Source: Amycolatopsis granulosa (GTDB taxonomy: Bacteria > Actinomycetota > Actinomycetes > Mycobacteriales > Pseudonocardiaceae). Taken from it: a stretch of DNA of 64,000 nucleotides. Below the pieces are notes generated by a model. The model was given only the letters and a program-made list of their open reading frames with translations. It was not told the DNA's origin and searched no databases. Each line of letters starts with the position of its first letter. Position 1 is the stretch's first letter. A program made the position numbers and the translations under genes. Location of the stretch: contig NZ_JAANOV010000001.1 in NCBI RefSeq assembly GCF_011758745.1, positions 1 through 64,000 of the forward strand, written 5' to 3'. Positions 41,519 to 62,426 of the stretch are shown in pieces.

Positions 41519-41536
41519 GGATGCTGATCCTGCCAG

Positions 41537-41574
41537 AGGGCCACTCCCGGCGCCCATGCCCCGGGAGTGGCCCT
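41537..41574 (-). terminator. Terminator hairpin after the GSDH-type dehydrogenase
   Basis: agggccactcccgg and ccgggagtggccct form a perfect 14-bp stem with a 10-base loop. It lies 13 bases after the dehydrogenase stop and before capA. It shares the core ccactcccg/cgggagtgg with the 42-bp palindrome at 19239. Confidence 0.8.
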
Positions 41575-45869: not shown

Positions 45870-45922
45870 GGGTTTCTCCTTCGAGCGAGTGGGAACCGAC
45901 CCCCTTGCCACGTGCGCCGGTC

Positions 45923-47457: not shown

Positions 47458-48690
47458 GTGCCCCCTCTCCTCGACCGGCCGCCCGACCGCGCCGGTGTCC
47501 GCCGGGCGAACCTCGCCCTGCTCGTCCGGCTCCTGCGCCGCCACGGTGCGCAGTCCCGGGCGCAGCTGTCGACCCGGAGCGGGCTGAGCAAGGCGACGGT
47601 CTCCAACCTCGTCGCCGAACTGGAGGCCCGCGCACTGGTCCAGTCCGGCGGGCGCCACGAGGGCGGGCAGGGCCGGCCCGGTCAGCTGGTGGAGCTGCGC
47701 CCGCGCGGCACCTGGGGCCTCGGCCTGGAACTGGACGCCGGCCACGTCGGCAGCACCCTCCTAGACCTCTCCGGCACCGCCACCACCCGGCGCCGCACCG
47801 CCGCCGACGTGCGTGCCCTCGGCCCCGAGCGCACCCTCGACGAACTCGCCGCCCTCGTCACCGCCGCGATGTCCGAAGTGGACGGCGGGAGCGGTGCGGG
47901 CACGGTGGCCGGGATCGCCGTCGCGGTGCCCGGCCTCGTCGGTGCCGGCACGGTCCGCGTGGCGCCCGGGCTCGGCTGGCGCGACGTCGCCCTCGCCGAC
48001 GGCCTCGCCGCCCGCACCGGCCTGCCGCCGGAGCGCATCGTCGTTGGCAACGACGCCGGCCTCGCCGCCGTCGCCGAAACCGACCGGGGTAGCGCCCGCG
48101 GCTGCCCCGACGTCGTGTTCCTGCTCGGCGGCCCCGGCGTCGGCGCCGGCCTGATCGCCGGCGGCAACCTGATCCGGGCCGGCGAGGCCGGGCACCTGCC
48201 GCTCGGACCGGCCGGACGGCCGTGCGCCTGCGGTCGTCGCGGCTGCTGGCAGACCGCCGTCGGCGTCGGTGCGCTGCTGCGTGCCTTCGCCGCGCCCGGC
48301 GACCTGGTGCGTGACCCCGCCCTGGACCTGGCGCAGCGCACCTCCATCGTGCGCCGGCGCGCCCAGCAGGGCGACCGCGGCGTCCTGGACGCGCTCGCCG
48401 GGCTGGGCACCGCGCTCGGCCTGGGTATCGCGGTGCTGGCCGATCTGCTCGACCCGCGGATGGTCGTGCTCGGCGGTTACTTCGCGCCGCTGAGCGATTG
48501 GCTCGCCGAGCCGATCCGCGCCGAACTCACCGCCCGCTCGGTGACCGCCGAGGCGGGCGGGCTCCGGATCGTGCCGTCCCGGCTCGGGTTCACCGCGGTC
48601 GGCACCGGCGCGGCGCAGGCCGCGATCCGGCCCCTGCTGGACGACCCGGCGCAGGCCCCGGCCGGCGCCCCGGTGAGCGTGGAGGCGTGA
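47458..48690 (+). CDS. ROK-family transcriptional regulator
   Basis: A 410-residue NagC/XylR-type regulator. A winged helix-turn-helix (about 15-75: AQLSTRSGLSKATVSNLVAELEAR) precedes the ROK sugar-binding domain with GIAVAVPGLVGAG, VGNDAGLAAVAE, EAGHLPLG and the zinc motif CACGRRGC. The residue after the zinc motif is WQ rather than the usual xE. It probably represses its own operon until a sugar or cyclitol binds. GTG 47458 has GGAG 6 bases upstream. Its stop overlaps the next start by one base (TGATG), making it the first gene of the 12-gene run. Confidence 0.9.
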   Translation: MPPLLDRPPDRAGVRRANLALLVRLLRRHGAQSRAQLSTRSGLSKATVSNLVAELEARALVQSGGRHEGGQGRPGQLVELRPRGTWGLGLELDAGHVGSTLLDLSGTATTRRRTAADVRALGPERTLDELAALVTAAMSEVDGGSGAGTVAGIAVAVPGLVGAGTVRVAPGLGWRDVALADGLAARTGLPPERIVVGNDAGLAAVAETDRGSARGCPDVVFLLGGPGVGAGLIAGGNLIRAGEAGHLPLGPAGRPCACGRRGCWQTAVGVGALLRAFAAPGDLVRDPALDLAQRTSIVRRRAQQGDRGVLDALAGLGTALGLGIAVLADLLDPRMVVLGGYFAPLSDWLAEPIRAELTARSVTAEAGGLRIVPSRLGFTAVGTGAAQAAIRPLLDDPAQAPAGAPVSVEA

Positions 48691-50198
48691 TGACCGAAGA
48701 CCTGCTGACCATGCGCGGCATCGTCAAGACGTTCCCGGGTGTCCGGGCGCTGGACGGGGTCGAGCTGTCGGTGCGGGCGGGGGAGGTGCACTGCCTGCTC
48801 GGCCAGAACGGTGCCGGCAAGTCCACGCTCATCAAGGTGCTCGCCGGGGCGCATCAGCCGGACGCGGGCGAGATCCGCTGGCGCCGCGAGCCCGTCACGC
48901 TGTCCTCGCCGGTCACCGCGCTGCGCTGCGGCATCGCGACCATGTACCAGGAGCTCGACCTCATTCCCGCGCTGTCCGTGGCGGACAACATCTTCCTCGG
49001 CCACGAGCCCGCCCAGGCCGGTTTCACCCGTGACCGGCACGCGCGTGCCGCGGCGAGCGAGCTGCTGGCCCGGCTGGGACACCCGGAGATCCACCCCGAC
49101 CGCGAGGTCGCCGACCTGTCCGCGGCCGGGCAGCAACTGGTGTCGATGGCCCGCGCGCTGGCCCACGACGCCCGGCTGATCGTGATGGACGAGCCGACCG
49201 CGGCGCTCGCCGCCGACGAGGTGGACAACCTGTTCCGCATCGTCGCCGAGCTCACCGCCACCGGGGTCGCCGTCGTCTACATCTCGCACCGGCTGGAGGA
49301 AATCCGCCGGATCGGCCACCGGGTCACCGTCCTCAAGGACGGCGCGACCGTCGCCGCCGGGCTCGAGGTCGCCGGCGTGACCACCGGCCACCTGGTGTCG
49401 CTGATGTCCGGCCGCCGCGTGGAAACCGTCTACCCGGAACGACTCGTATCCACGGTGGACAGTTCCGCGGAGCTGCTGCGGGTGGCGAACCTGACCCGGC
49501 ACGGCGAGTTCGAAGACGTCGGCTTCACCCTCCGGCGCGGCGAGATCCTCGGCGTGGCCGGGCTTGTCGGCGCCGGTCGCAGCGAGCTGCTGGAGACCGT
49601 CTTCGGTGCCCGCAAACCCGACGCGGGCACCGTGCACGTGGACGGCAAACGCCTCAAGCCGGGTGACGTGCCCGCGGCCGTGGCCGCCGGGATCGGCCTG
49701 GCGCCGGAGGAACGCAAGAGCCAGGCGCTGCTGCTGGAGATGTCGGTGGCGCACAACGTGACGCTGGCCAGTCTGCCCGCCTACAGCCGGTTCGGCTTCA
49801 CCGACCGCGCCCGTGAGCTCGGCGACTCGGCTGAGCGGCTGCGGCAGCTGGACCTGCGCCCGGCCGACCCGCGCCGTCCGGTGGGCACGCTCTCCGGCGG
49901 CAACCAGCAGAAGGCGGTGGTGGCGCGCTGGCTCGTGCGGGGCTGCTCGATCCTGCTGCTGGACGAGCCGACCCGCGGCGTCGACGTGGGCGCGCGGGCC
50001 GAGCTGTACCGGCTGATCCGCGAGCTCGCCGCGTCCGGGGTCGGGATCGTGCTGGTCTCCAGCGAGATGCCCGAGGTGCTCGGGCTCGCCGACCGCGTGC
50101 TCGTGCTGCGGGAGGGCCGGGTGGTCCGCGAGGCGCCCGCCGACGAGCTGACCGAAGCAGACGTGCTGAATCTGGTGATGGAGGGAAGTGCGGCATGA
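48690..50198 (+). CDS. Sugar ABC importer, duplicated ATP-binding protein (RbsA type)
   Basis: A 502-residue ATPase with two ABC domains. Domain 1 has Walker A GQNGAGKST, a degenerate signature LSAAGQQLVSMARAL and Walker B LIVMDEPTAAL. Domain 2 has the usual weak Walker A GLVGAGRSE, signature LSGGNQQKAVVARWL and LLLDEPTRGVDVGA. This asymmetry is typical of CUT2 importers for ribose, xylose, galactose and inositol. ATG 48690 overlaps the ROK stop; the end overlaps the permease by 4 bases. Confidence 0.95.
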   Translation: MTEDLLTMRGIVKTFPGVRALDGVELSVRAGEVHCLLGQNGAGKSTLIKVLAGAHQPDAGEIRWRREPVTLSSPVTALRCGIATMYQELDLIPALSVADNIFLGHEPAQAGFTRDRHARAAASELLARLGHPEIHPDREVADLSAAGQQLVSMARALAHDARLIVMDEPTAALAADEVDNLFRIVAELTATGVAVVYISHRLEEIRRIGHRVTVLKDGATVAAGLEVAGVTTGHLVSLMSGRRVETVYPERLVSTVDSSAELLRVANLTRHGEFEDVGFTLRRGEILGVAGLVGAGRSELLETVFGARKPDAGTVHVDGKRLKPGDVPAAVAAGIGLAPEERKSQALLLEMSVAHNVTLASLPAYSRFGFTDRARELGDSAERLRQLDLRPADPRRPVGTLSGGNQQKAVVARWLVRGCSILLLDEPTRGVDVGARAELYRLIRELAASGVGIVLVSSEMPEVLGLADRVLVLREGRVVREAPADELTEADVLNLVMEGSAA

Positions 50199-51226
50199 CG
50201 AAGGACTCCTCGTCGGTGTTGCCCGAGGCCACGCAGGCCCCGCCACCCCGGGCGGCGCCGGCGGCCAGGCCCGTGCGCGGGCGGTTTCCGCTGGACGCCC
50301 GGCTGGCCGGCCTGTTCGGCGTGTTCGTCCTGCTGTGCGTGGTCGGCTGGCTGACCCGGCCGGACGCGTTCTTCACCGAGGGCAACCTGTCCACCGTGCT
50401 GCGGCTGGCCGCCGCGATCGGCGTGGTGAGCGTCGGCATGACGTTCGTGATCATCAGCGGCGGGATCGACCTGTCCGTCGGGTCGATCGTCGCGCTGTCC
50501 GGCGTGTGGGCCACGACGCTGGCGACGCAGTCGTTCGGCCCGGTGGTGATGGTGATCTGCGCGCTGGCGGTCGGGCTGGGCTGCGGCCTGGTCAACGGGG
50601 TGCTCGTCGCCTACGGCCGCGTGGTGCCGTTCATCGCCACACTCGCGATGTACGCCTCCGCCCGCGGCCTCGCCGAGCGGATCAGCGGCCGCAACACGCA
50701 GGTGGTGCGCCAGAGCGGTTTCCTCGCGTTCTTCCGCGGTGACCTGCTCGGCATCCCGGTGCTGATCTGGATGTTCGCCGCGGTGTTCGTGGTGGGCTGG
50801 GTCCTGCTCAACCGCACCACGTTCGGGCGACGCACGTTCGCCGTCGGCGGCAACACCGAGGCGGCGCGGCTGGCCGGCATCAACGTCAAGCGGCACACCG
50901 CGCTCGTCTACGGCGTGGCCGGGCTGTGCTGCGGCATCGCGGCGCTGATGGTCGTCGCGCGCACCACATCGGGTGCCTCCACCAACGGGCTGTACTACGA
51001 ACTGGACGCGATCGCGGCGGTGGTCATCGGCGGCACCCTGCTCTCCGGCGGGCGCGGCACCCTGATCGGCACGCTCATCGGTGTCCTGATCTTCACCGTG
51101 CTCGGCAACATCTTCACGCTCAACAACCTCGACACCGACATCCAGAACATCGCCAAGGGCGCCATCATCGTCCTCGCCGTGCTCCTGCAGTTCCGCACCA
51201 GGCGGCGCGCCCGGCGATCCACTTAG
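50195..51226 (+). CDS. Sugar ABC importer permease (RbsC type)
   Basis: A 343-residue membrane permease with about nine to ten helices. Characteristic CUT2 motifs are GMTFVIISGGIDLSVGSIVALSG (written here in part), GLVNGVLVAYGRVVPFIATLAM, and the coupling segment FGRRTFAVGGNTEAARLAGINV. A long disordered N-terminus (1-35) precedes helix 1. It forms the channel with the ATPase, which it overlaps by 4 bases. The binding protein follows after 56 bases, the only real gap in the operon. Confidence 0.94.
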   Translation: MTKDSSSVLPEATQAPPPRAAPAARPVRGRFPLDARLAGLFGVFVLLCVVGWLTRPDAFFTEGNLSTVLRLAAAIGVVSVGMTFVIISGGIDLSVGSIVALSGVWATTLATQSFGPVVMVICALAVGLGCGLVNGVLVAYGRVVPFIATLAMYASARGLAERISGRNTQVVRQSGFLAFFRGDLLGIPVLIWMFAAVFVVGWVLLNRTTFGRRTFAVGGNTEAARLAGINVKRHTALVYGVAGLCCGIAALMVVARTTSGASTNGLYYELDAIAAVVIGGTLLSGGRGTLIGTLIGVLIFTVLGNIFTLNNLDTDIQNIAKGAIIVLAVLLQFRTRRRARRST

Positions 51227-51282: not shown

Positions 51283-52338
51283 ATGCCCGGACCATCCTCC
51301 CTCGCCCGCCGCCGTTTCCTCACCGGTGGCGCGGCCGTCGGCGCCGGTGCCCTGCTGGCCGCCTGCACCTCCAACGAGTCCCCGCAGTCCGCGCCGCAGG
51401 CCGTCGCCGGCACCGCGGGCCAGAACGCCCAGCCCGGCAAGCACGTCACCATCGGCTTCTCCGCGCCGGCCGCCGACCACGGCTGGATGGCGGCGATGAC
51501 GAAGAACGCCCGCGCCCAGGCCGGCCGCTTCTCCGACGTCACCTTCACCGCCACCGAGGGCACCAACGACGTCAACCAGCAGATCGCCCAGGTCGAGACC
51601 CTGATCAACCAGAAGGTCGACGTCCTGGTGATCCTGCCCTTCGACGGCAAGGCCCTCACCCAGGCCGGTCAGCAGGCGATGGACGCCGGCATCCCGGTGG
51701 TCAACGTGGACCGGGTGTTCGACACGCCACTGGCCTACCGCACCTGGATCGGCGGCGACAACTACCGGATGGGCGTCAACGCCGGCAACTACATCGCCGC
51801 GGAGCTGAAGCGCAAGGGCGTGGGCAACCCGGTGATCGGCGAGGTCGCCGGCATCGACTCGCTGCCGCTGACCCAGGAACGCAGCCAGGGGTTCAAGGAC
51901 GCGCTGGCCAAGAACGGGTTCCGCGTCGGACCGCGCGTCTCGGCGCAGTTCACCCCGGAGAGCGGCGAGCAGATGACGGCGAACCTGCTGCAGTCGGCGA
52001 GCAGGCTGGACGCGTTGTGGAACCACGACGACGACCAGGGCATCGGCGTCCTCGCAGCGGTCGACAGCGCCCGCCGGTCGGAGTTCTTCCTGGTCGGCGG
52101 CGCCGGGTCGCGCAACATGATGGACCTGGTCAAGGCCGACAGCAGCGTCATCAAGGCCACCGTGCTCTACAGCCCGTCGATGGCGTCCTCGGCGATCGCC
52201 CTGGCCCGGCTGCTCGGCCAGGGCAAGGGCATCGGCGACCTCGCCGAGCACGAGATCCCCGCGACCGTCACGACCTACTCGGCCGTGGTGACCAAGGAGA
52301 ACGTCGATTCCTATGCCGATGTCGCCTTCGACTCCTGA
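51283..52338 (+). CDS. Sugar ABC importer substrate-binding lipoprotein
   Basis: A 351-residue type I periplasmic-binding protein with both a twin-arginine-like n-region (RRRFLTG, residues 9-15) and a lipobox LAAC (Cys28), so it is probably a Tat-exported lipoprotein. The binding fold shows VTIGFSAPAADHGWMAAMTKNA, VDVLVILPFDGKALTQAG, GIPVVNVDRVF and ALWNHDDDQGIGVLAAV, matching ribose/xylose/inositol binders. It decides what the operon imports; ligand not deducible. Its last 26 bases overlap the oxidoreductase gene. Confidence 0.92.
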   Translation: MPGPSSLARRRFLTGGAAVGAGALLAACTSNESPQSAPQAVAGTAGQNAQPGKHVTIGFSAPAADHGWMAAMTKNARAQAGRFSDVTFTATEGTNDVNQQIAQVETLINQKVDVLVILPFDGKALTQAGQQAMDAGIPVVNVDRVFDTPLAYRTWIGGDNYRMGVNAGNYIAAELKRKGVGNPVIGEVAGIDSLPLTQERSQGFKDALAKNGFRVGPRVSAQFTPESGEQMTANLLQSASRLDALWNHDDDQGIGVLAAVDSARRSEFFLVGGAGSRNMMDLVKADSSVIKATVLYSPSMASSAIALARLLGQGKGIGDLAEHEIPATVTTYSAVVTKENVDSYADVAFDS

Positions 52339-53524
52339 CCCGGCGGCCACCCCGGGCGCCGTGATCGGCGTCGGCATGGTGGGGCACGCCTTCATGGGCG
52401 CCGTGCACGCCCACGCGTGGCGCTCGGTGCACCGGTTCTTCGACGTGCCGCTGGTGCCGCGGCTGGCCGTGCTCGGCGGCCGCGACCCGGAACGCACGAA
52501 GGCCGCCGCCGCCCGGCAGGGCTGGCCGGACGTGGAGACCGACTGGGCGGCCCTGATCACCCGCGACGACGTGGGCATCGTCGACATCTGCACGCCCGGG
52601 GACTCGCACTGCGAGATCGCCATCGCCGCGCTCGCGGCCGGCAAGCACGTGCTGTGCGAGAAGCCGCTGGCCAATTCGGTGGCCGAGGCCGAGGAGATGG
52701 CGGCGGCCGCGGAACGGGCGGCGCTGCGCGGGCAGCGGGCCATGGTCGGCTTCAACTACCGGCGTGTGCCGGCCATCGCGCTGGCGCGCAAGCTGGTCGC
52801 CGAGGGCAGGCTGGGCACGATCCGCCAGGTCCGGGCCGCCTACCTGCAGGACTGGCTGGCCGACCCGGCCACACCGATGACGTGGCGGCTGCGCCGGGAC
52901 CGGGCCGGGTCCGGGGCGCTGGGGGACATCGCCGCGCACGCGGTGGACACCGCCCAGTTCATCCTGGGTGACCGCATCACCGGGGTGTCGGCGATGACCG
53001 AGACGTTCGTGCGGCAGCGGCCGGTGAGTGCGGCGCCGGGCAGCGCGCTGGGTGAGGTCGACGTCGACGACGTCACGGTGTTCCTCGCCCGGTTCACCGG
53101 CGGGGCGGTCGCCACCTTCGAGGCCACCCGGTTCGCGCTGGGCCGCAAGAACGCGCTGCGGGTGGAGGTCAACGGGTCGCGCGGCAGCCTGGCGTTCGAC
53201 TTCGAGTCGATGAACGAGCTGTCCTTCTACGACGGTGACGCCGATCCGGCCGAGGCCGGGTTCCGCCGCATCCTGGTGACCGAGCCGGCGCACCCGTACG
53301 TGGGTGCGTGGTGGCCGCCCGGGCACCTGCTCGGGTACGAGCACACCTTCACCCACGAGATCGCCGATTTCCTGACCGCGATCGGGGAGCGGCGCGACCC
53401 GGAGCCGTCGTTCGCCGACGGGCTGCAGGTGCAGCGGGTGCTGGAGGCGGTGCAGGACAGCGCCGGCAACGGAACGTCCTGGGTCGGCGTACCAAGGTCG
53501 ACCGAAAGGGTGATCGATGCCTGA
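52313..53524 (+). CDS. Gfo/Idh/MocA-family oxidoreductase
   Basis: A 403-residue NAD(P)-dependent dehydrogenase. The Rossmann part has IGVGMVGHAFMGAVHAHAW, GIVDICTPGDSHCEIAIAAL and the family hallmark GKHVLCEKPLANSVAEAE (catalytic Lys). The C-terminal domain has MVGFNYRRVPAIALARKL and a GSGALGDIAAHAVDTAQFILG stretch with Asp/His of the active site. Relatives oxidise inositol, sugars or sugar acids. ATG 52313 and 52319 are both possible; AAGGAG stands 12 bases before the first. It overlaps the genes on both sides (26 and 8 bases), tying the transporter to the cyclitol genes. Confidence 0.9.
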   Translation: MPMSPSTPDPAATPGAVIGVGMVGHAFMGAVHAHAWRSVHRFFDVPLVPRLAVLGGRDPERTKAAAARQGWPDVETDWAALITRDDVGIVDICTPGDSHCEIAIAALAAGKHVLCEKPLANSVAEAEEMAAAAERAALRGQRAMVGFNYRRVPAIALARKLVAEGRLGTIRQVRAAYLQDWLADPATPMTWRLRRDRAGSGALGDIAAHAVDTAQFILGDRITGVSAMTETFVRQRPVSAAPGSALGEVDVDDVTVFLARFTGGAVATFEATRFALGRKNALRVEVNGSRGSLAFDFESMNELSFYDGDADPAEAGFRRILVTEPAHPYVGAWWPPGHLLGYEHTFTHEIADFLTAIGERRDPEPSFADGLQVQRVLEAVQDSAGNGTSWVGVPRSTERVIDA

Positions 53525-54668
53525 CCGTACTGGATTGTGGCTCATCGGCGCGCGGGGCTCCGTGGCCACGACGGCGATCAGCGGACTGCTCGCGATCCGC
53601 TCCCGCCTCGCCGCGCCGGACGGCTGCGTGACCGAACGGCTGGACGTCGCACCGGGCGTGCTGCCGGGCTGGGACGAGCTCGTCGTCGGCGGGCACGACG
53701 TGGTGGACACGCCGCTGGAGAAGAAGGCCGAGCAGCTCACCGCCGCCGGACTGCTGCCGGCCGGCCTGCTGCCGGCGATCCGGGACGGCCTGCGCGCGGT
53801 CGAGGCGGACCTGCGCCCGGTCGTTCCCGCGGGCACGCAGGCCGGGACCGCCGCGCGGCTGGCCGGCGATCTGCGGGAGTTCCGCGCCCGGCACGGGTTG
53901 TCGGCTGTCGTGGTGGTCAATGTCGCCTCCACCGAACCGCCGGCCGCGGACGTTCCGGAGCACCACGACCTCGACGCGCTCGTGGCGGCGCTGGACGAGC
54001 CGGGCCGCGAGGTCCTGCCGTCCAGCTCGCTGGCGGCCTACGCGGCGGTCTCGGCGGGTTGCCCGTTCGTGGACTTCACGCCGTCCCCCGGCATCCGGCT
54101 GCCCGCGCTCGTCGAGTTCGCCCGGCGGCAGGGACTGGCGTATGCCGGGTCGGACGGCAAGACCGGGGAGACGCTGCTGCGCTCGGTGCTCGCGCCGATG
54201 TTCGCGGCACGGGCCCTGACGGTGCGCTCGTGGGCGGGGACCAACCTGCTCGGCGGTGGGGACGGCGCGACGCTGGCCGACCCGGCGACGGCGGCCGGGA
54301 AGCTCGAGTCCAAGGCCCGCGGCCTGGCCGCCCTGCTCGGCGACGACGTGACCGCGCCGCTGCACATCGATCACGTGCCCGACCTCGGCGAGCAGAAGAC
54401 CGCGTGGGACCACGTGTCCTTCGAAGGGTTCCTCGGCGCCCGGATGACCCTGCAGTTCACCTGGACCGGCTACGACTCGGCGCTGGCCGCGCCGCTGGTG
54501 CTGGATCTGGCCCGGCTCACCGCGGCCGCGCACCGGGCGGGCGAGACCGGGCCGCTGGCGCCACTGGCGTTCTTCTTCAAGGACCCGGTGGGCACCGGCG
54601 AGCACCGGTTCGCCGAACAGGCCCGGATCCTGGCCGCGTGGGCGGCGTCGCTGGGGCGGCCGGCGTGA
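53517..54668 (+). CDS. Inositol-3-phosphate synthase-type cyclase (in the EboD position)
   Basis: A 383-residue NAD+-dependent cyclase of the Ino1 family, close to mycobacterial Ino1 in length. The N-terminal Rossmann site is LIGARGSVATTAISGLLAI; LPSSSLAAYAAVSAGCPFVDFTP and GSDGKTGETLLRSVLAPMF carry family motifs, and lysines in KLESKARGL and GEQKTAWDHVSFEGFLG fit the catalytic set. True Ino1 turns glucose-6-phosphate into inositol-3-phosphate. Here it lies with eboC, eboA, eboB, eboE and eboF, where other bacteria have EboD, a dehydroquinate-synthase-like cyclase. It may use a different sugar phosphate. Overlaps eboC by 4 bases. Confidence 0.85.
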   Translation: MPDRTGLWLIGARGSVATTAISGLLAIRSRLAAPDGCVTERLDVAPGVLPGWDELVVGGHDVVDTPLEKKAEQLTAAGLLPAGLLPAIRDGLRAVEADLRPVVPAGTQAGTAARLAGDLREFRARHGLSAVVVVNVASTEPPAADVPEHHDLDALVAALDEPGREVLPSSSLAAYAAVSAGCPFVDFTPSPGIRLPALVEFARRQGLAYAGSDGKTGETLLRSVLAPMFAARALTVRSWAGTNLLGGGDGATLADPATAAGKLESKARGLAALLGDDVTAPLHIDHVPDLGEQKTAWDHVSFEGFLGARMTLQFTWTGYDSALAAPLVLDLARLTAAAHRAGETGPLAPLAFFFKDPVGTGEHRFAEQARILAAWAASLGRPA

Positions 54669-55519
54669 ACCCGTACGTGCAGCTGGTGCGGGCCCCGGCG
54701 GCGCTGAGCGTCCTGGGCGACACCGTGGCGGGCGCGGCGGCGGCCGGGCGTCCGCTGCGTGGGCGGCGGCTCGCGCTGCCGCTGGCGTCGGTCGCGTTCT
54801 ACTGGTCCGGCATGGCGCTCAACGACTGGGCGGACCGGCGGCTGGACGCGGTGGAGCGGCCGGAGCGCCCGATCCCGTCCGGGCGGATCGGCGCGTCCCG
54901 GGCGTTCGGCGTGGCGGCCGGGCTGACCGGGGCGGGCCTGGTGTTGTCCGCGCTCGCCGGCGGCCGCGATGCCCTGACGGTCGCCGCGCCCCTCGCGGCG
55001 GCGGTGTGGGCCTACGACACCGTGCTGAAGAAGACCCCGCTCGCGCCGGTGGCGATGGCCGCGTGCCGGTCGCTGGACGTCCTGCTCGGCGCGGGCGGGC
55101 GCGCCGCGTCCCGTGCGCTGGTGCCGGCGGCCGTGCTCGGCGGGCACACGCTGGGGGTGACCGCGTTGTCGGCGGGCGAGGTGCACGGCGCGTCCCCGGC
55201 GCGGGCGGCCGGTGCCCTCGCGCTGACCTCCGTGTCGGCCGCCACGGCGGCCTCCGGCCGGGGCGGCCGCCCTGGGCAGCGCGCCGCCGCGCTGGCCGCG
55301 GCCGCCGGGTACGGGGTGAGCGTGGGAACCAGGCAGTACGCGGCCGTGCGGACGCCGACCGCGGCGGTGGTGCGGACGGCGACGGCTGCCGGCATCCACG
55401 GCATGGTGCCGTTGCAGGCGGCGCTCGCGGCCCGGCGCGGAGGTGTCCGCGGAGCCGCCCTCGTCGCGCTGGCGCTCCCGCTGGCCCGGCGGCTCGGCCG
55501 GAAAGTGAGCCCGACATGA
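54665..55519 (+). CDS. eboC: EboC-like UbiA-superfamily prenyltransferase (SCO3242 type)
   Basis: A 284-residue integral membrane protein with about seven to nine helices. The first Asp-rich motif of UbiA enzymes is NDWADRRLDAVERPERPIPSGR (split: NDWAD and ERPERPIPSG). The second, usually DxxxD, is reduced to AYDTVLKK. These enzymes attach a polyprenyl chain to an aromatic or cyclitol acceptor at the membrane. In the Nostoc ebo cluster the homologue is implicated in moving a precursor to the periplasm. GTG 54665 overlaps the cyclase stop (GTGA). Acceptor and prenyl donor unknown. Confidence 0.82.
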   Translation: MNPYVQLVRAPAALSVLGDTVAGAAAAGRPLRGRRLALPLASVAFYWSGMALNDWADRRLDAVERPERPIPSGRIGASRAFGVAAGLTGAGLVLSALAGGRDALTVAAPLAAAVWAYDTVLKKTPLAPVAMAACRSLDVLLGAGGRAASRALVPAAVLGGHTLGVTALSAGEVHGASPARAAGALALTSVSAATAASGRGGRPGQRAAALAAAAGYGVSVGTRQYAAVRTPTAAVVRTATAAGIHGMVPLQAALAARRGGVRGAALVALALPLARRLGRKVSPT

Positions 55520-56928
55520 GCGGATACCACCTCGGCTACGGCACCAACGGTTTCGCCAACCACCGGCTGGACGACGCGCTGGCGATCATCGCCGACCTCG
55601 GCTACACCGCGGTCGCGCTGACCCTGGACCACCAGCACCTCGACCCGTACGCACACGACCTGGCCGCGTGCGTGGACCGGCTCGCGGCCCGGCTGGACAC
55701 GCTCGGCCTGCGATGCGTGGTGGAGACCGGCGCGCGGTTCCTGCTCGACCCGTGGCACAAGCACGAACCGACGCTGGTCAGCGAGGACGCGGACAAGCGG
55801 CTGGACTTCCTGGCCCGGGCCATCCGGGTCGCCGGGGGGCTGGGCGCGGACTGCGTGTCGTTCTGGTCCGGCGTGTCCACTGTGGACCACGACACGGCCT
55901 GGCGGCGGCTGCGCGAACGGATGCCCGCGGTGCTGGCCGAGGCGGACCGGCGCGGCGTGCGGCTCGGCCTGGAGCCCGAACCGGGCATGCTGGTCGAAAC
56001 GCTGTCGGACGCGCTGCGGCTGCGCACCGAGCTCGGCGAGCCCGAGCCGCTCGGGATCACCCTGGACGTCGGGCACTGCGTCGCGGTCGAGGAGGTCGAT
56101 GCGGCCACCTGCCTCCGGCGGGCCGGCGGGCTGCTGGTCAACGTGCAACTCGACGACATGCGGCCGGGCGTGCACGAGCACCTCGAGTTCGGCGACGGGG
56201 AGCTGGACCTGCCGGCCACCCTCGCCGCGCTGGACGAGATCGGCTACCGCGGCGTCGCCGCCGTCGAGCTGCCGCGGCATGGCCACGCCGCGCCGCAGGT
56301 CGCCCGCACCGCCCTGACCGCGCTGCGTGCCGCGCGGCTGGACCAGTCCTGGCTCGGGCCCGCGCAACGCCGGGTGGCGGCCGACCCGGGCGCGATCCGC
56401 ACGCTGTTCCCGGCGGCCGGCCGGCACGCCGGGCGGGCACCGCTGCACCCGCACTCCGATCCGGACGGCCTGGTCCACGGCACGGCCGACGACCTCGCCC
56501 GCACCCGGCTGCTGGAAACGCTCGCCACGGTACTGCCCGCGGCGGAGTTCGCCACCGAGCTGGCCGACCTCTACCGCTACGGCGACGGCGCCGAACGGCG
56601 CGGCGTGCTGCGTGCGCTGTCCGCGGTGGGTGACCGGGCGCCGGCCACCGGCCTCGCCCTCGTCCGGGACGCCCTGCGCAGCAACGACACCGGCCTGATC
56701 GCGGCCGCGCTCGGCCCGTTCGCCGCCCGGCACCTGGACCAGCACGGCTGGCGCCACGGGGTGCTCAAGTGCCTGTTCACCGGGATCCCGGTGGCCGCGG
56801 TCGCCGAGCTGGACCGGCGGGCCGACGACGAGCTGCGCCGCATGATCACCGACTACGCCGGGGAGCGCCGGGCCGCCGGGCGCGCGGTCCCCGCCGACGC
56901 CCTCCGCCTCCTGGAAGGGGCCCGCTGA
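55516..56928 (+). CDS. eboA: Fusion of a sugar-isomerase TIM barrel with an EboA domain
   Basis: A 470-residue two-domain protein. The N-terminal xylose-isomerase-like barrel (about 1-280) has GYGTNGFANHRLDDALAII, RCVVETGARFLLDPW, GLEPEPGMLVETLSDAL (metal-ligand Glu) and GITLDVGHCVAVEE, NVQLDDM. The C-terminal EboA domain (about 320-470) has LYRYGDGAERRGVLRALSAVGD, ALRSNDTGLIAAALGPFAARHL and GVLKCLFTGIPVAAV. EboA alone is of unknown function; fusion to a metal-dependent isomerase suggests that it acts on or holds the same intermediate. It overlaps both neighbours (4 and 1 bases). Confidence 0.83.
   Translation: MSGYHLGYGTNGFANHRLDDALAIIADLGYTAVALTLDHQHLDPYAHDLAACVDRLAARLDTLGLRCVVETGARFLLDPWHKHEPTLVSEDADKRLDFLARAIRVAGGLGADCVSFWSGVSTVDHDTAWRRLRERMPAVLAEADRRGVRLGLEPEPGMLVETLSDALRLRTELGEPEPLGITLDVGHCVAVEEVDAATCLRRAGGLLVNVQLDDMRPGVHEHLEFGDGELDLPATLAALDEIGYRGVAAVELPRHGHAAPQVARTALTALRAARLDQSWLGPAQRRVAADPGAIRTLFPAAGRHAGRAPLHPHSDPDGLVHGTADDLARTRLLETLATVLPAAEFATELADLYRYGDGAERRGVLRALSAVGDRAPATGLALVRDALRSNDTGLIAAALGPFAARHLDQHGWRHGVLKCLFTGIPVAAVAELDRRADDELRRMITDYAGERRAAGRAVPADALRLLEGAR
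55875..55887. repeat. GTCCAC-N-GTGGAC palindrome, copy 3
   Basis: Centre base T. In frame inside the eboA fusion gene, encoding V-S-T-V-D, identical in sequence to the copy at 16205. Confidence 0.6.
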
Positions 56929-57803
56929 TGCGCCTGTTCGATCCGCACATCCACATGACCTCCCGCACCACCGACGACTACGAGGCCATGTACGCCGCCG
57001 GCGTGCGGGCGCTGGTCGAACCCGCGTTCTGGCTCGGCCAGCCCCGCACCGGGGTGTCCTCGTTCACCGACTACTTCGACGGGCTGATCGGCTGGGAACG
57101 GTTCCGCGCCGCCCAGTTCGGCATCCGCCACCACTGCACGATCGCGCTCAACCCGAAGGAGGCCAACGACCCGCGCTGCACCCCGGTGCTCGACGTGCTG
57201 CCGCGCTACCTCGCCAAGGACGGTGTGGTCGCGGTCGGCGAGGTCGGCTACGACTCGATGACCCCGGCCGAGGACGCCGCCTTCGCCCGGCAGCTGGAAC
57301 TGGCGAAGGAGCACGACCTGCCGGTCCTGGTGCACACCCCGCACCGGGACAAGCTGGCGGGCACCAGGCGCACGCTGGCCGTGGTGGCCGAGTCCGGCGT
57401 CCCGCCGGAGCGGGTTGTGGTCGACCACCTCAACGAGGTCACCGTCGGACTGGTCGAGGAGTCCGGGTGCTGGATGGGCTTTTCCATCTACCCGGACACC
57501 AAGATGGACGAGCAGCGCATGGTGGCGATCCTGCGCGAGTACGGCACCGAGCGGATGCTGGTCAACTCCGCCGCCGACTGGGGCCGCTCCGACCCGCTGA
57601 AGGTGCGCAAGACCGGCTTGGCGATGCTGGACGGCGGGTTCACCGAGTCCGATGTGGACCGGGTGCTGTGGGCCAACCCGGTGGCCTTCTACGGGCAGAG
57701 CGGGCGGCTGGTGCTCGACGAGCTGCCCTCCTTCGCCGCGGCGAAGGAGACGTTCGCGGGCAACTCGGTGCTGCGCGGCGGCCGGGACGAGGCGGTCGCG
57801 TGA
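56928..57803 (+). CDS. eboB: EboB-like TatD-family metal-dependent hydrolase
   Basis: A 291-residue amidohydrolase-fold protein. All TatD metal ligands are visible: DPHIHMTSRT near the N-terminus, GEVGYDSMTPAE (Glu), LVHTPHRDK (His), VVDHLNEVT (His) and NSAADWGRSDPLKV (Asp). Unlike DNA-cleaving TatD it has the ebo-type segments CTIALNPKEANDPRC and FYGQSGRLVL. It probably hydrolyses a phosphoester or ester in the ebo pathway. ATG 56928 shares one base with the eboA stop; its end overlaps eboE by 4 bases. Confidence 0.85.
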   Translation: MRLFDPHIHMTSRTTDDYEAMYAAGVRALVEPAFWLGQPRTGVSSFTDYFDGLIGWERFRAAQFGIRHHCTIALNPKEANDPRCTPVLDVLPRYLAKDGVVAVGEVGYDSMTPAEDAAFARQLELAKEHDLPVLVHTPHRDKLAGTRRTLAVVAESGVPPERVVVDHLNEVTVGLVEESGCWMGFSIYPDTKMDEQRMVAILREYGTERMLVNSAADWGRSDPLKVRKTGLAMLDGGFTESDVDRVLWANPVAFYGQSGRLVLDELPSFAAAKETFAGNSVLRGGRDEAVA

Positions 57804-58885
57804 CACCGCTGTCCTACTGCACCAACGTCCACCCGGCCGAGGACCTGCCCGGGGTCCTCGCCCAGCTCGACGCCTTCGCCCTGCCGGTGCGGGAACGGCT
57901 CGGCGCGGACCGGCTCGGGCTCGGACTGTGGCTGGCCGCGGGCGTGGCGTCGGCGCTGGCCGCCGACCCGGCCGAGCGCAAGCGGTTGCGGGCCGAACTC
58001 GACGCGCGCGGCCTGGAGGTGGTGACACTCAACGCCTTCCCGTACGGCGGCTTCCACGACCGGGTGGTCAAGCACCAGGTCTACGATCCACGATGGACGG
58101 ACCGGGCGCGGGCGGCGTACACACTGGACTGCGCGACCGTGCTGTCCGCGCTGCTGCCCGCCGAGGTGGCGTACGGCAGCATCTCGACGCTGCCGCTGGG
58201 CTGGCGCGAGCCGTGGACACCCGGGGACGACGCGGCCGCCGCCCGGCTGCTCGACGAGGTCACCGCCGGGCTGCGGGCCCAGGACCGGACCATCCGGCTC
58301 GCCGTCGAACCGGAGCCGGGCTGCGTCCTGGACACCGTGCACGACGCGGTGACCTGGCTCGCCGGACGCGTCGATCCGCAGCACGTCGGAGTGTGCCTGG
58401 ACACCTGCCACCTCGCGGTGTCCTTCGCCGACCCGGCCGGGGCGGTCGCCGAGATCACCGCGGCCGGGCTGGACGTGGTCAAGGTCCAGCTGTCGGCCGC
58501 GCTGCACGTGCCCGATCCGCGGGACCCGGCCGCGCGGGAGGCGCTCGCCGCGTTCGACGAGCCGCGTTACCTGCACCAGACGCGCGAGCTGGCCGGCGGC
58601 AGCGTGCGCGCCGCCGACGACCTGGGTGAGGCGTTCACGCACCTGCCGGGGGAGGGTCCGTGGCGCGTGCACTTCCACGTGCCGCTGCACGCCCGGCCCG
58701 CGGCGCCGCTGTCCTCGACCACCGGGGTGCTCGCGGCCGCGCTCGCCGTGCTCCCGGACCGGGCGGTGCACCGGGAAGTGGAGACCTACACCTGGACGGT
58801 GCTGCCCGAAGCGCACCGGCACGACCTCGTCGGCGGGATCGCGGCGGAGCTGGCGTTCGCCGCGGGATTGGTGGAGCAGGCATGA
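57800..58885 (+). CDS. eboE: EboE-like xylose-isomerase-type TIM barrel ('metabolite traffic')
   Basis: A 361-residue TIM-barrel protein. It begins with the family signature LSYCTNVHPAEDLPGVLAQL and has VVTLNAFPYGGFH, RLAVEPEPGCVLDTV (Glu ligand), GVCLDTCHLAVSF (Asp/His) and VHFHVPLHARP, VETYTWTVLP near the end. EboE is grouped with ebo cluster proteins linked to precursor transport in scytonemin producers, but its chemistry is unproven; the barrel suggests metal-dependent isomerisation of a sugar or cyclitol. GTG 57800 overlaps the eboB stop. Confidence 0.85.
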   Translation: MTPLSYCTNVHPAEDLPGVLAQLDAFALPVRERLGADRLGLGLWLAAGVASALAADPAERKRLRAELDARGLEVVTLNAFPYGGFHDRVVKHQVYDPRWTDRARAAYTLDCATVLSALLPAEVAYGSISTLPLGWREPWTPGDDAAAARLLDEVTAGLRAQDRTIRLAVEPEPGCVLDTVHDAVTWLAGRVDPQHVGVCLDTCHLAVSFADPAGAVAEITAAGLDVVKVQLSAALHVPDPRDPAAREALAAFDEPRYLHQTRELAGGSVRAADDLGEAFTHLPGEGPWRVHFHVPLHARPAAPLSSTTGVLAAALAVLPDRAVHREVETYTWTVLPEAHRHDLVGGIAAELAFAAGLVEQA

Positions 58886-60276
58886 AACCACTCCTGGTGC
58901 TCGACATCGTCGGCATGACCCCCCGGCTGCTCGACCACATGCCGAACGTGGCGCGGCTGGGGCGGCAGGGCTGGCAGGCGCAGCTGGACACCGTGCTGCC
59001 CGCGGTGACCTGCAGCGTCCAGTCCACGTTCCTGACCGGGCGGATGCCCGCGGGGCACGGCATCGTCGGCAACGGCTGGTACTTCCGCGAACTCGGCGAG
59101 GTCTTCCTGTGGCGCCAGCACAACCGGCTCGTCGAGGGCGAGAAGCTGTGGGAGAGCGCGCGCGCCGCGCACCCCGGGTACCGCGCGGCCAACGTGTGCT
59201 GGTGGTACGCGATGGGCGCCACCACGGACCTCACCGTCACCCCCCGGCCGATCTACTACGCGGACGGGAAGAAGGCGCCGGACTGCTACACCCGGCCGCC
59301 GCAGCTGCACGACCGGCTCACCGCACGGCTGGGTGAGTTCCCGCTGTTCCAGTACTGGGGCCCGACCGCGTCGATCGCCTCGACCGACTGGATCGTCGGC
59401 GCCACGTCGGCCATCCTGCGCGCCGACCGGCCCGATCTGACCCTGGCCTACCTGCCGCACCTGGACTACGACCTGCAGCGGTTCGGCCCGGACTCGCCGC
59501 AGGCACTGGCGGCGGCACGCGCGGTCGACGCGTCCGTCGCTCCACTGCTGGAACAGGCCTGCGCCGACGGGGTGGCCGTGGTGGCGCTGAGCGAGTACGG
59601 CATCACCAGCGCGCACCGGCCGGTCGACGTCAACCGGCTGTTGCGCCGCGCGGGGCTGCTCGAGGTCCACACCCAGGACGGCATGGAGTACCTGGACACG
59701 TGGACATCGCGGGCCTTCGCCGTCGCCGACCACCAGGTTGCCCACGTCTACGTCGCCGACCCCGCCGATCTCCCGCGGGTGCGCGGCCTGCTGGCCGGAC
59801 TGTCCGGTGTGGACGAGGTGCTGGACAGGACCGCCCAGGCGCGGTACGGGATAGACCACGCGCGGGCGGGCGAGTTCGTGGTGACCGCGGAGCCGGACGC
59901 GTGGTTCACCTACTACTACTGGCTCGACGACGACCGCGCCCCGGACTTCGCGCGGGGCGTGGAGATCCACCGCAAACCCGGCTACGACCCGGCGGAGCTG
60001 TTCTTCGACCCGGCCGATCGGCTGGTCAAACTGAAGGCCGGGCTGAACCTGGTGCGCAAGCGGGCCGGGCTGCGGTACGCGATGAACGTGGTGCCGCTCG
60101 ATCCGGCGCCGGTGCGCGGCTCGCACGGCCGCCTGCCGGACTCGCCGGCGGACGGGCCGGTGCTGCTGTGCGGTGAGGCAGGGGTGCCGGAGCGGGAGCG
60201 GCTGGCCGCGACCGAGGTGCGGGACCTGCTGCTGAGCGTGCAAGGACTCAAGGCGAGGGAAGGGAGCCGGCGATGA
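58882..60276 (+). CDS. eboF: EboF-like alkaline-phosphatase-superfamily phosphodiesterase
   Basis: A 464-residue enzyme of the nucleotide pyrophosphatase/phosphodiesterase type. [10 protein letters not shown] supplies the first metal Asp, [14 protein letters not shown] the nucleophile Thr, [13 protein letters not shown] the typical substrate loop, [17 protein letters not shown] and [14 protein letters not shown] the second metal set. No signal peptide, so it is cytoplasmic. It probably removes or cleaves a phosphate or nucleotide from an ebo intermediate, complementing a cyclase that makes a phosphorylated product. It overlaps neighbours by 4 bases at each end. Confidence 0.85.
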
Positions 60277-61277
60277 GCCGTCCGGTCACGTTGTTCACCG
60301 GCCAGTGGGCCGACCTGCCGTTCGAGGAGGTGTGCCGGCTCGCGGCGCAGTGGGGTTACGACGGGCTGGAGATCGCGTGCAGCGGCGACCACTTCGAGGT
60401 CGGCCGCGCGCTCGCCGACGACGACTACGTCGCGGGGCGGCACAAGATCCTGTCCTCCTACGGCTTGAAGGTGTGGGCCATTTCGAACCACCTGGTCGGG
60501 CAGGCGGTGTGCGACGACCCGATCGACGAGCGGCACCGCAACATCCTGCCCGCCCACGTCTGGGGCGACGGGGAGCCGGAGGGTGTGCGGCGGCGGGCGG
60601 CCGCGGAGATGGCGGACACCGCGCGCGCCGCGGCGAAGCTCGGGGTGAACACCGTGGTCGGCTTCACCGGGTCGAAGATCTGGAAGTACGTGGCGATGTT
60701 CCCGCCGGTGCCGCAGGAGGTCATCGACGACGGCTACGCCGACTTCGCGGCGCGGTGGAACCCGATCCTGGATGTGTTCGACGAGGCGGGTGTCCGGTTC
60801 GCGCACGAGGTGCACCCGTCGGAGATCGCCTACGACTTCTGGACGACGAAACGCGCCCTGGAGGCCGTGGGGCACCGGCCGGCGTTCGGGCTGAACTGGG
60901 ACCCGTCGCACTTCGTCTGGCAGGACCTGGACCCGGTCGGGTTCATCCTCGACTTCGCCGACCGCATCTACCACGTGGACTGCAAGGACACCAAGAAGCG
61001 GTTCGACGGCCGCAACGGGCGGCTCGGGTCGCACCTGCCGTGGGCCGATCCGCGGCGCGGCTGGGATTTCGTGTCCACCGGCCACGGCGACGTGCCGTGG
61101 GAGGAAAGTTTCCGCGCGCTGAACGCGATCGGCTACGCCGGACCGGTCTCGGTGGAGTGGGAGGACGCCGGCATGGACCGGCTGCGCGGCGCGGAGGAGG
61201 CGGTGCGCTTCGTCCGCGGCCTGCTGTGGGACAAGCCCGCGTCCGCCTTCGACGCCGCCTTCCGCACCGAGCACTGA
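60273..61277 (+). CDS. Sugar phosphate isomerase/epimerase, last gene of the ebo-type operon
   Basis: A 334-residue xylose-isomerase-like TIM barrel distinct from the two other barrels in the operon. It starts [31 protein letters not shown] and has [14 protein letters not shown] (Glu), [13 protein letters not shown] (Asp/His), [11 protein letters not shown] and [11 protein letters not shown] (last Glu). Metal ligands are complete. Similar proteins serve as ketose epimerases or cyclitol dehydratases/isomerases. ATG 60273 overlaps eboF by 4 bases. A hairpin-rich region follows, ending the operon. Confidence 0.88.
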
Positions 61278-61421: not shown

Positions 61422-62426
61422 TCAGCTGAACAGCGCGCTGTAGCCGTTGAGCGCGGGCTGGCCGCCGAGGTGCGCGTAGAGCACCGTCGCCTCCGCCGGG
61501 ATCTCCCGGCGGGACACCAGGTCGATGAGCCCGGCCATCGACTTGCCCTCGTACACCGGGTCGGTGATCATGCCCTCGGTGCGCGCGGCGACACGCATCG
61601 CGTCCACGGTCCGCTCGTCCGGGATGCCGTAGGTGCCCGCGTGGTAGCGCTCGTCCAGCTCGACCGCCAACTCCTGCTCGACGCCGAGCAGTGACGCGGT
61701 GTGCCGTGCGATGCGGGCGATCTGGTCGCGGGTCGCCGCCGGCTCGGCGGAGCCGTCGATGCCCAGGACGCGCCGCGGGCGGTCCTCGCCCAGCGCGGCG
61801 AATCCGGCGATCATCCCGGCCTGCGTGGAACCGGTCACCGAGCAGACGATGATCGTGTCGAAGTGCACGCCCAGCTCGCGCTCCTGCTCGGCCACCTCGG
61901 CGGCCCACCGCGCGAAGCCGAGCCCGCCGAGCGGGTGGTCGGACGCGCCGGCCGGGATGGCGTACGGCTTGCCGCCGCGCTCGCGGATCTCCGCCAGCGC
62001 CTGCTCCCAGCTCTCCTTCACCCCGATGCCGAACCCGGCCCGCACCAACCGCACCTCGGCGCCCGCCAGCCGGCTGATCAGGATGTTGCCGACCTTGTCG
62101 TAGACGGCGTCCGGCCAGTCGACCCAGCTCTCCTGCACCAGCACGCACTTGAGTCCGGTCCGCGCCGCGACCGCGGCGACCTGGCGGGTGTGGTTGGACT
62201 GCACACCGCCGATCGACACCAGCGTGTCGCAGCCCTGCGCGAGTGCGTCCGCGACGAGGTACTCCAGCTTGCGGGTCTTGTTGCCGCCGAAGGCGATGCC
62301 GGAGTTGCAGTCCTCGCGCTTGGCCCAGATCCCGGCGCCGCCGAGGTGCGCGGTCAGCCGGTCCAGCCGGTGCACCGGCGAGGGGCCGAACAGCAGGGGA
62401 TGGCGCGCGAACGATTCGAGGGACAT
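61422..62426 (-). CDS. acdS: 1-Aminocyclopropane-1-carboxylate deaminase
   Basis: A 334-residue PLP enzyme that opens ACC, the plant ethylene precursor, to 2-oxobutyrate and ammonia. It closely follows Pseudomonas ACC deaminase: [23 protein letters not shown] with PLP Lys50, [29 protein letters not shown]. The residues that separate true ACC deaminases from D-cysteine desulfhydrases are present: Tyr292/Glu293 in DPVYEGKS and Leu320 in YAHLGG. GGAG stands 6 bases before ATG 62426. It lies 54 bases downstream of the GntR gene on the same strand, so the two probably form an operon. Confidence 0.93.

Follow-up and report, generated by a model that had tools for sequence, protein, structure and literature searches.

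We analysed a 64,000-nucleotide stretch of the Amycolatopsis granulosa genome (assembly GCF_011758745.1, contig NZ_JAANOV010000001.1, positions 1 to 64,000; hereafter the window), which carries an ebo-type gene cluster containing a gene for a cyclase of the inositol-phosphate-synthase (Ino1) type. From a Gfo/Idh oxidoreductase gene through a second barrel gene (52313-61277), the genes run on the plus strand with overlaps of 1-8 bp between neighbours, and between 53517 and 61277 their order is Ino1-type cyclase, UbiA, barrel-EboA fusion, EboB-like, EboE, EboF-like and second barrel. A sequence-only reading of this DNA had placed EboC-, EboA-, EboB-, EboE- and EboF-like genes and an Ino1 in one overlapping run without EboD, and all of them were found as placed. 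No dehydroquinate-synthase-like (EboD) gene lies within the run, which comprises the following features:

52313-53524, plus strand: Gfo/Idh/MocA oxidoreductase, accessory (PF01408/PF22725)
53517-54668, plus strand: Ino1-type cyclase, 383 aa, in EboD's stead (PF07994, 163 bits; PF01658, 104 bits)
54665-55519, plus strand: UbiA-superfamily prenyltransferase, EboC-like, SCO3242 family, 284 aa (NF045897, 356 bits, cut-off 260)
55516-56928, plus strand: barrel and EboA fusion gene (PF01261 and NF035938 matches)
55516-56331 (end approximate), plus strand: xylose-isomerase-like TIM barrel, N-terminal half of the fusion (PF01261, 132 bits, residues 23-272)
56488-56928, plus strand: EboA domain, C-terminal half of the fusion (NF035938, 162 bits, residues 325-465, cut-off 50)
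56928-57803, plus strand: EboB-like TatD-superfamily hydrolase, 291 aa (PF01026, 51 bits, cut-off 27)
57800-58885, plus strand: EboE, TIM-barrel protein, 361 aa (NF035939, 422 bits, cut-off 250)
58882-60276, plus strand: EboF-like type I phosphodiesterase/nucleotide pyrophosphatase, 464 aa (PF01663, 211 bits)
60273-61277, plus strand: second xylose-isomerase-like barrel, SCO6571 family, accessory (2zds, 590 bits; 8ro4, 140 bits)

Both domains of the Ino1 family are present in the cyclase, well above their cut-offs (25 bits for PF07994 and 27 for PF01658). The nearest solved structure is the inositol-1-phosphate synthase of Archaeoglobus fulgidus (1u1i, 209 bits, E 1.9e-60), with which the window cyclase has family, length and nine active-site positions in common, and from which it differs by its linkage to ebo genes and its exclusion of EboD. 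These positions (D225, K227, N255, D261, K274, K278, K306, D332 and K367 in A. fulgidus), which we take to form the inositol-phosphate-synthase active site, were conserved in all 98 ebo-linked sequences of a computed alignment; the count covers Ino1 sequences scoring >300 bits, two of 100 having been dropped as low-scoring pieces. The five-membered-cyclitol-phosphate synthase 6k96, which we take to be Ari2 of the aristeromycin pathway, is likewise an Ino1-family cyclase of secondary metabolism, but its match was far weaker (44 bits against the 209 of 1u1i), and a five-ring cyclase of this kind was rejected on that basis. The inositol-3-phosphate synthase 1gr0, presumably the mycobacterial enzyme, gave 30 bits. 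Against the mycothiol-type Ino1 model TIGR03450 (cut-off 638), the window cyclase scored 22 bits, while a second Ino1 elsewhere in the same genome reached 698 bits. On these scores the window cyclase is a member of a different, archaeal-like Ino1 branch and not of the mycothiol type. An ordinary Ino1 serving only mycothiol or phosphatidylinositol would, by the terms of the sequence-only reading, have spoken against it; since the genome has a separate Ino1 that passes the mycothiol cut-off, we rejected such a role for the cluster gene.

Among the remaining proteins, the prenyltransferase passed the SCO3242-family cut-off and fell short of that of the EboC model NF035940 (134 bits, cut-off 250); the UbiA of the EboD-type Ketogulonicigenium locus falls under both cut-offs. 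An NDxxDxxxD motif was found in 113 of the 114 UbiA homologues scoring at least 100 bits. The fusion protein scored 58 bits against the stand-alone EboA family model (cut-off 320), and its AlphaFold model (pLDDT 89) shows an EboA domain built of helices only. Fusions of this kind occur in 16 of the 123 scanned loci, the window included; actinobacterial barrel-EboA hybrids are mentioned as data not shown in the accessible text of PMC5133447. The best Foldseek matches of the fusion barrel were UlaE 3-epimerase and SCO6571, with YcjR high as well. EboE was modelled with a xylose-isomerase-like fold (pLDDT 93), and fold searches with the EboE and barrel-EboA models returned general epimerase-type barrels only, which do not fix the reactions. 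The EboB-like protein matched PF01026 and none of the curated EboB models; it is 43% identical to the EboB of an EboD-type locus (L046). The solved structure nearest to the EboF-like protein was phosphonoacetate hydrolase (3szy, E 2.4e-8).

To place the window among its relatives we used two sets of loci. The survey set consisted of 396 Actinomycetota genomes, an even sample of the phylum, to which the genome-level survey was restricted. EboE was present in 27 of them, and 28 EboE neighbourhoods were taken from 26 of these genomes (the window's own was left out) and annotated with profiles built from reference proteins. The named loci were the best 80 of 581 EboE matches, whose titles all appear actinobacterial and among which Prauserella, Kibdelosporangium and kin supplied the closest relatives of the window's EboE. 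An EboB-type homologue was found at every locus of both sets (28/28 and 80/80). Ino1 was present at 25 of the surveyed loci and EboD at one, with both at none and neither at two; at the named loci the counts were 68 with Ino1, none with EboD and 12 with neither. At surveyed locus L044 the Ino1 match is a piece of 69 bits, a complete copy being present on a different contig, and at named locus L086 it is a 97-bit piece only. As for the two surveyed loci with neither cyclase, L039 belongs to a genome whose second ebo locus has Ino1, and L065 has a split EboE. Half of the 12 such named loci are shorter than 15 kb (L120, L122, L131, L134, L139 and L146); the remaining six are long, and each of their genomes has an ebo-type Ino1 at another place. 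There it forms part of a second ebo locus at L173, L177 and L180 (of an incomplete one at L178) and of an Ino1-barrel-Gfo set at L174 and L175, and at L176 and L179 it stands beside Gfo or by itself. At L081, L083, L103, L104, L121, L147 and L039, profiles detected neither Ino1 nor EboD and tblastn detected no Ino1; no search was made for a third, unrelated cyclase.

Whole genomes gave the same picture. With the EboD profile, one EboE genome (G301) scored 558 bits and the other 26 at most 188 bits, and it was these 26 that matched the ebo-Ino1 profile at E<=1e-60, although in G244, whose EboE is split, the match comes only from a separate non-ebo Ino1 cassette. The best ebo-Ino1-profile match of G301, which was searched in full, was a mycothiol-like protein of 63 bits, and the mycothiol enzyme of the window's genome scored 65 bits. 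For the genome of the window we rejected an EboD hidden outside the cluster, since the sole EboD-profile match at E<=1e-10 (145 bits, at 5.50 Mb) was at the level of the weak matches in other ebo genomes and compares with 558 bits for the true EboD of G301. In the 79 of 80 named genomes covered by the search, no true EboD was detected (best match 209 bits); on a like profile, the true EboD proteins of the distant Aureibacter and Gloeothece reached 466 and 505 bits. EboD and this Ino1 were found together in none of the 27 surveyed and none of the 79 named ebo genomes. Eight EboD-type named loci, taken from a plasmid collection and chosen for EboD (that of Gloeothece, L153, has EboB and EboD only), likewise had no Ino1, a count of local co-occurrence and not a survey, and in the same collection none of the 16 close-EboD records was among the 40 listed of 44 Ino1-match records. 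Ino1 in the place of EboD is the rule at actinobacterial ebo loci and not chance. The mutual exclusion that the sequence-only reading had set as a test beforehand holds in Actinomycetota, and genomes with both cyclases, the rule it would have predicted against, did not appear in either set.

That reading had described the exchange as a swap of EboD for Ino1. It was right that Ino1 is present and EboD absent; the replacement, however, consists of Ino1 plus a particular barrel, and the fused barrel had gone unmentioned. Among Ino1 loci, a barrel of the fusion type was present at 24 of the 25 surveyed and 66 of the 68 named ones, at both Streptomyces plasmid loci examined (2/2), in haloarchaea (3/3, with weaker scores of 112-136 bits and two copies per locus) and in Gemmatirosa (1/1). 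At EboD loci it was found in none of nine (the eight named loci and L046). This barrel subfamily also lies near Ino1 at loci of a non-ebo gene set (L158-L164, a Roseomonas plasmid, L070, and a Methylobacterium plasmid, L071), where Ino1 and the barrel occur together in 9/9 and Gfo/Idh in 8/9, and this suggests that the barrel acts on the Ino1 product. The Roseomonas locus adds a methyltransferase, a YcaO-like protein, a GT4 glycosyltransferase and a PIG-L deacetylase; the non-ebo set is possibly an inositol-glycoside pathway of a new type.

Ino1-type clusters were also seen in haloarchaea and in Gemmatirosa kalamazoonensis, the latter represented by a single locus (L068). Halobaculum, Natronococcus and Halocatena have plasmids with Ino1, UbiA, EboB-like and EboF-like genes and two barrels, and Haladaptatus has the same set but no Ino1 next to it. 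We found no EboD in the four haloarchaeal records or the Gemmatirosa record, a result of little weight because it covers these records and not the chromosomes and had no positive control. Two Halomarina plasmids (L067, L172) have an Ino1 close to the haloarchaeal ebo type with no UbiA or EboF matches nearby; in L067 it adjoins glycosyltransferase genes. The Gemmatirosa locus combines Ino1 and the barrel with an EboB that shares 71% identity with its counterparts in the EboD-type loci of Deinococcus and G301, and as in these two an EboG-like ORF precedes EboB. This backbone resembles the EboG-type operon of Deinococcus, Herpetosiphon and others described in the accessible part of PMC5133447, with Ino1 and the barrel where Deinococcus has EboD; the window, in contrast, is of the EboA type. 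Gemmatirosa EboE and EboF are closest to EboD-type proteins, and in a tree of EboB, EboF and UbiA from 32 loci Gemmatirosa groups with the EboD-type loci. A single Ino1-type clade (with Haladaptatus) was rejected by the three proteins together (P value of the approximately unbiased test, p-AU, 1e-83) and by EboB alone (p-AU 7.5e-5, or 3.7e-6 without haloarchaea). The housekeeping Ino1 lies too far off to serve as a root for the Ino1 tree. In this tree one branch (support 100) unites the actinobacterial ebo genes with four genes from Ino1-Gfo sets, a second (support 95) unites the haloarchaeal genes with the two Halomarina genes, and Gemmatirosa lies outside both. Because the Gemmatirosa backbone is EboG-type and its two relatives are EboD-type, the cyclase exchange, as far as gene content and trees can tell, probably happened at least twice.

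On balance we lean, without strong conviction, towards reading the window as a cyclase-exchanged form of the ebo cluster whose genes would yield a prenylated cyclitol or cyclitol-derived lipid. Judging from its family and active-site residues, Ino1 would cyclise glucose 6-phosphate to inositol phosphate; the linked barrel, from its fold and linkage, would isomerise or tailor the cyclitol or its keto form; and UbiA would prenylate the cyclitol-derived acceptor at the membrane. EboB, EboE and EboF, which accompany either cyclase in the bacteria seen, would carry out shared later or donor-side steps. The head group would probably differ, being a C6 inositol derivative here and a C7 sedoheptulose derivative with EboD. 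The role would be kept, and would plausibly be to transport or retain small substrates of enzymes outside the cytoplasm, as the genetics of scytonemin indicates in Nostoc, where in all ebo mutants made the scytonemin monomer stayed in the cytoplasm (PMC6282210, accessible text). An isoprenoid-cyclitol product was proposed from EboD in 2016 (PMC5133447, accessible text), and the cyclase interchange, as read from sequence, is independent support for it. The sequence-only reading had likewise suggested a cyclitol in the core product. The exclusion turned out as it predicted in Actinomycetota; the idea itself had already been printed in 2016, and the same head group need not follow. For EboF, which is kept in EboD-type clusters, the dephosphorylation of the cyclitol product that this reading proposed is not the most economical role. 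Known cyclases of the EboD superfamily release phosphate themselves. With EboF kept in both types and EboD-like enzymes releasing phosphate, the substrate of EboF may be on the prenyl side. A prenyl-side substrate is considered as well in the accessible text of PMC5133447.

The Gfo/Idh protein and the last barrel are better read, from their relatives, as a glycoside 3-oxidation or keto-sugar module separable from the core. The best relatives of the former were 4h3v (566 bits; without an assigned function), 6a3f (296 bits; deposited as a putative dehydrogenase and, we presume, a levoglucosan dehydrogenase) and scyllo-inositol dehydrogenase 5ya8 (220 bits), and its 356 bits against the NCBIfam levoglucosan dehydrogenase model NF052479 lay below the cut-off of 650. 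The barrel is nearest to SCO6571 (2zds) and to 2-hydroxy-3-keto-glucal hydratase (8ro4). The two occur together at 3 of 28 surveyed and 17 of 80 named loci, and this minority marks them as accessory. Gfo/Idh had been assigned earlier to the cyclitol pathway; its levoglucosan-type relatives and its presence at a minority of loci speak against this, and the scyllo-inositol dehydrogenase among its relatives speaks for it. In Agrobacterium, an operon with such enzymes breaks down glycosides through oxidation, elimination, hydration and reduction steps (PMC10628242, accessible text). This O-glycoside operon (AtOGE, AtHYD) and the levoglucosan pathway combine Gfo/Idh with xylose-isomerase-like barrels, as does the accessory pair of the window; ebo genes go unmentioned in the accessible part of PMC10628242. 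Upstream of the run, the window contains further features:

41588-44866, minus strand: large glucose/sorbosone-dehydrogenase (GSDH)-domain protein with PKD, CBM6 and FIMAH domains (PF07995, 98 bits, and others)
44916-45911, minus strand: xylose-isomerase-like barrel with a twin-arginine-like N-terminus, as judged by eye (PF01261, 47 bits)
48696-50198 (start approximate), plus strand: sugar ABC transporter ATP-binding protein, accessory (AraG-type model, 522 bits, cut-off 689, residues 67-563 of ORF 48498-50198)
50195-51226, plus strand: sugar ABC transporter permease, accessory (PF02653, 136 bits)
51283-52338, plus strand: periplasmic sugar-binding protein, accessory (PF13407, 147 bits; Tat signal models below cut-offs)

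The genes for the sugar-binding protein and Gfo/Idh overlap by 26 bp, and the operon may therefore begin with the ABC sugar transporter (about 48.7-52.3 kb). Of the 27 genomes with EboE, 19 were used to place PF07995 genes, and 15 of these have one no more than 15 kb from EboE, against 0.49 expected from genome counts, the genomes being phylogenetically non-independent; the window's member of this ebo-linked GSDH family is the gene at 41588-44866 (minus strand). We also counted neighbour families across 109 loci with a crude gene caller that produced antisense ORF families as well, and the families cited here were Pfam-checked or read. Homologues of the barrel protein at 44916-45911 (minus strand), which is probably secreted, were present at 37 of these loci, the window included. 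A family with ThuA and 3-keto-disaccharide-hydrolase domains recurred at 12 of 109 (one member Pfam-checked), and a polyprenyl-synthetase family, a possible prenyl donor enzyme, at nine (L038, L064, L081, L083, L090, L100, L123, L138 and L140, with L138 Pfam-checked). A secreted oxidising protein beside ebo genes is a theme in common with Nostoc, where the ebo genes serve the periplasmic enzyme ScyE (PMC6282210, accessible text), and this is only an analogy. A protein annotated as ScyD/ScyE-family lies near a Streptomyces Ino1-type ebo cluster (L033, 2990-4189), and among the 109 loci phmmer found ScyE-like homologues at L128 (14027-15268) and L136 (14046-15284) only. At the EboD-type locus of Ketogulonicigenium (L034) there are two genes for Gfo/Idh proteins together with a xylose-isomerase-like barrel from a different subfamily; sugar oxidoreductases thus accompany both cyclase types. 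Elsewhere the window contains a 1-aminocyclopropane-1-carboxylate deaminase gene (61422-62426, minus strand; 545 bits, curated cut-off 392), a Tle1-like phospholipase-domain protein (39305-40378, plus strand), a PGA_cap domain protein (40406-41557, minus strand) and, at about 35.6-38.9 kb, opposite-strand ORFs with a 4-alpha-glucanotransferase domain (minus strand) and an alpha-amylase domain (plus strand).

A wider picture, which we offer tentatively and consider possible rather than probable, is that of a modular prenylated-cyclitol system into which either EboD or Ino1 with its barrel can be plugged, with at least two exchanges and a haloarchaeal version. The Ino1 form would then make a prenylated inositol lipid that, beside the secreted sugar-oxidising proteins, acts as carrier or anchor in oxidations outside the cytoplasm. 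We know of no biosynthetic pathway for prenylated inositol lipids as a class.

Several observations weigh against a cyclase exchange within one conserved pathway leading to a prenylated cyclitol. Some ebo loci lack a local Ino1, and an Ino1 with the Gfo/barrel module is found away from ebo genes at L174, L175 and L168. The haloarchaeal clusters matched neither the EboE nor the EboA profile. The strong rejection of a single Ino1-type clade comes from EboB, for whose full tree a long-branch warning was raised, with the haloarchaea as partners; EboF was borderline (p 0.08, or 0.04 without haloarchaea), and neither EboE (p 0.49) nor UbiA (p 0.47) rejected such a clade. The EboF tree sets Gemmatirosa beside proteobacterial EboD-type sequences (support 99), and its grouping with Deinococcus and G301 was rejected (p 0.013), so that the Gemmatirosa operon looks mixed. 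Gemmatirosa lies outside both Ino1 branches, which makes an independent recruitment of the ebo-linked Ino1 genes possible, and a single origin is unsupported. In the UbiA tree, Gemmatirosa falls with the actinobacterial Ino1 type (support 90) and the alternative was not rejected (p-AU 0.23); a switch of the prenyltransferase along with the cyclase is only suggestive. If true, this joint switch would fit a prenyltransferase acting on the cyclase product. The assayed EboC homologues, from Flavobacteria and a relative, preferentially farnesylated quinoline-type aromatics, accepted 6 of 14 aromatic acceptors and prenylated no phenol or catechol (PMC9235831, accessible text).

The last of these findings leads to a rival in which EboC prenylates an aromatic or quinoline-like compound, the cyclitol being a separate polar unit, or in which the cyclitol is first aromatised by inosose-dehydratase-like barrels and then prenylated. 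Flavobacterial EboC does farnesylate 8-hydroxyquinoline-2-carboxylic acid in vitro (PMC9235831, accessible text), epimerase-like barrels (EboE) are present in both cluster types, and the window's barrels match inosose dehydratase IolE weakly. Yet a crude look at the recurring neighbour families examined recognised no aromatic-precursor gene, and the swap of two unrelated cyclases would go unexplained unless the cyclitol is central; we regard an aromatic acceptor as unlikely, though worth serious thought. The sets of Ino1, barrel and Gfo away from ebo genes, the ebo loci without a local Ino1 and the strong linkage of the GSDH-domain protein to ebo loci could all be accommodated if Ino1 belonged to a glycoside-oxidation module (Gfo/Idh, SCO6571-type barrel, secreted dehydrogenase and ABC transporter) and were merely a frequent neighbour of ebo. 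We think this quite unlikely: Ino1 is present at 25/28 and 68/80 loci, far more often than the Gfo and SCO6571-type barrel pair, it adjoins UbiA with no module between them in Streptomyces and Gemmatirosa, and the single EboE genome of 27 without the ebo-type Ino1 has EboD.

The two remaining explanations concern the product of the cyclase itself. Both cyclases could reach one identical core product by convergent chemistry, with Ino1 and the barrel imitating the EboD product; the consistent replacement of EboD by two genes and the retention of EboB, EboE and EboF in the bacteria seen would agree with this. EboD, however, is placed near enzymes using a seven-carbon sugar phosphate (PMC5133447, accessible text), whereas Ino1 forms a six-carbon ring, and the UbiA proteins of the two types are divergent, which leaves convergence very improbable. 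Still less credible, in our judgement, is that the cluster Ino1 serves as a back-up enzyme supplying inositol phosphate for mycothiol or phosphatidylinositol. The family and active site are alike and the immediate product is probably identical, but the genome's other Ino1 exceeds the curated mycothiol cut-off, the cluster enzyme sits on the archaeal-like branch and excludes EboD, and haloarchaea, which to our knowledge do not use mycothiol, carry it in a similar context.

Compared with the known cluster eboABCDEF, as defined by six genes in Yurchenko et al. 2016 and including Pseudomonas EDB and the scytonemin-linked cluster of Nostoc, the window likewise has an EboA domain and EboB-like, UbiA, EboE and EboF-like proteins in a compact operon. 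It differs in having no EboD, in having Ino1 and an extra barrel, fused to EboA, instead, and in a UbiA that belongs to the SCO3242 family and not to curated EboC. The Ubi-297/ebo clusters of Flavobacteria and Saccharomonospora have UbiA within the ebo genes, as in the window; the accessible text of PMC9235831 describes that cluster as eboA-E with EboD, and the enzymes assayed there came from Maribacter, Zobellia and Algoriphagus. Both Saccharomonospora loci in our collection (L085, L144) carry Ino1. None of PMC5133447, PMC6282210 and PMC9235831 uses the word inositol in its main text, and we found no literature report of Ino1 in ebo clusters, nor a phenotype for the Ino1 type, subscription papers being outside the search. 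SCO3242 and SCO3243 have been counted with the calcium-dependent antibiotic cluster (PMC3610822, accessible text); judging by their annotation and the name of the NCBI family, they may be part of the Ino1-type ebo variant instead.

The ebo clusters are found in cyanobacteria, in many other bacteria and in some algal plastids. A natural swap of unrelated cyclases in a conserved pathway indicates that a cyclitol is probably part of their product. The swap also shows which atoms to label, namely those of inositol, in actinomycetes or haloarchaea, and makes the nature of the product directly testable in culturable strains. It may, in addition, re-assign genes now listed under other pathways, such as SCO3242 and SCO3243.

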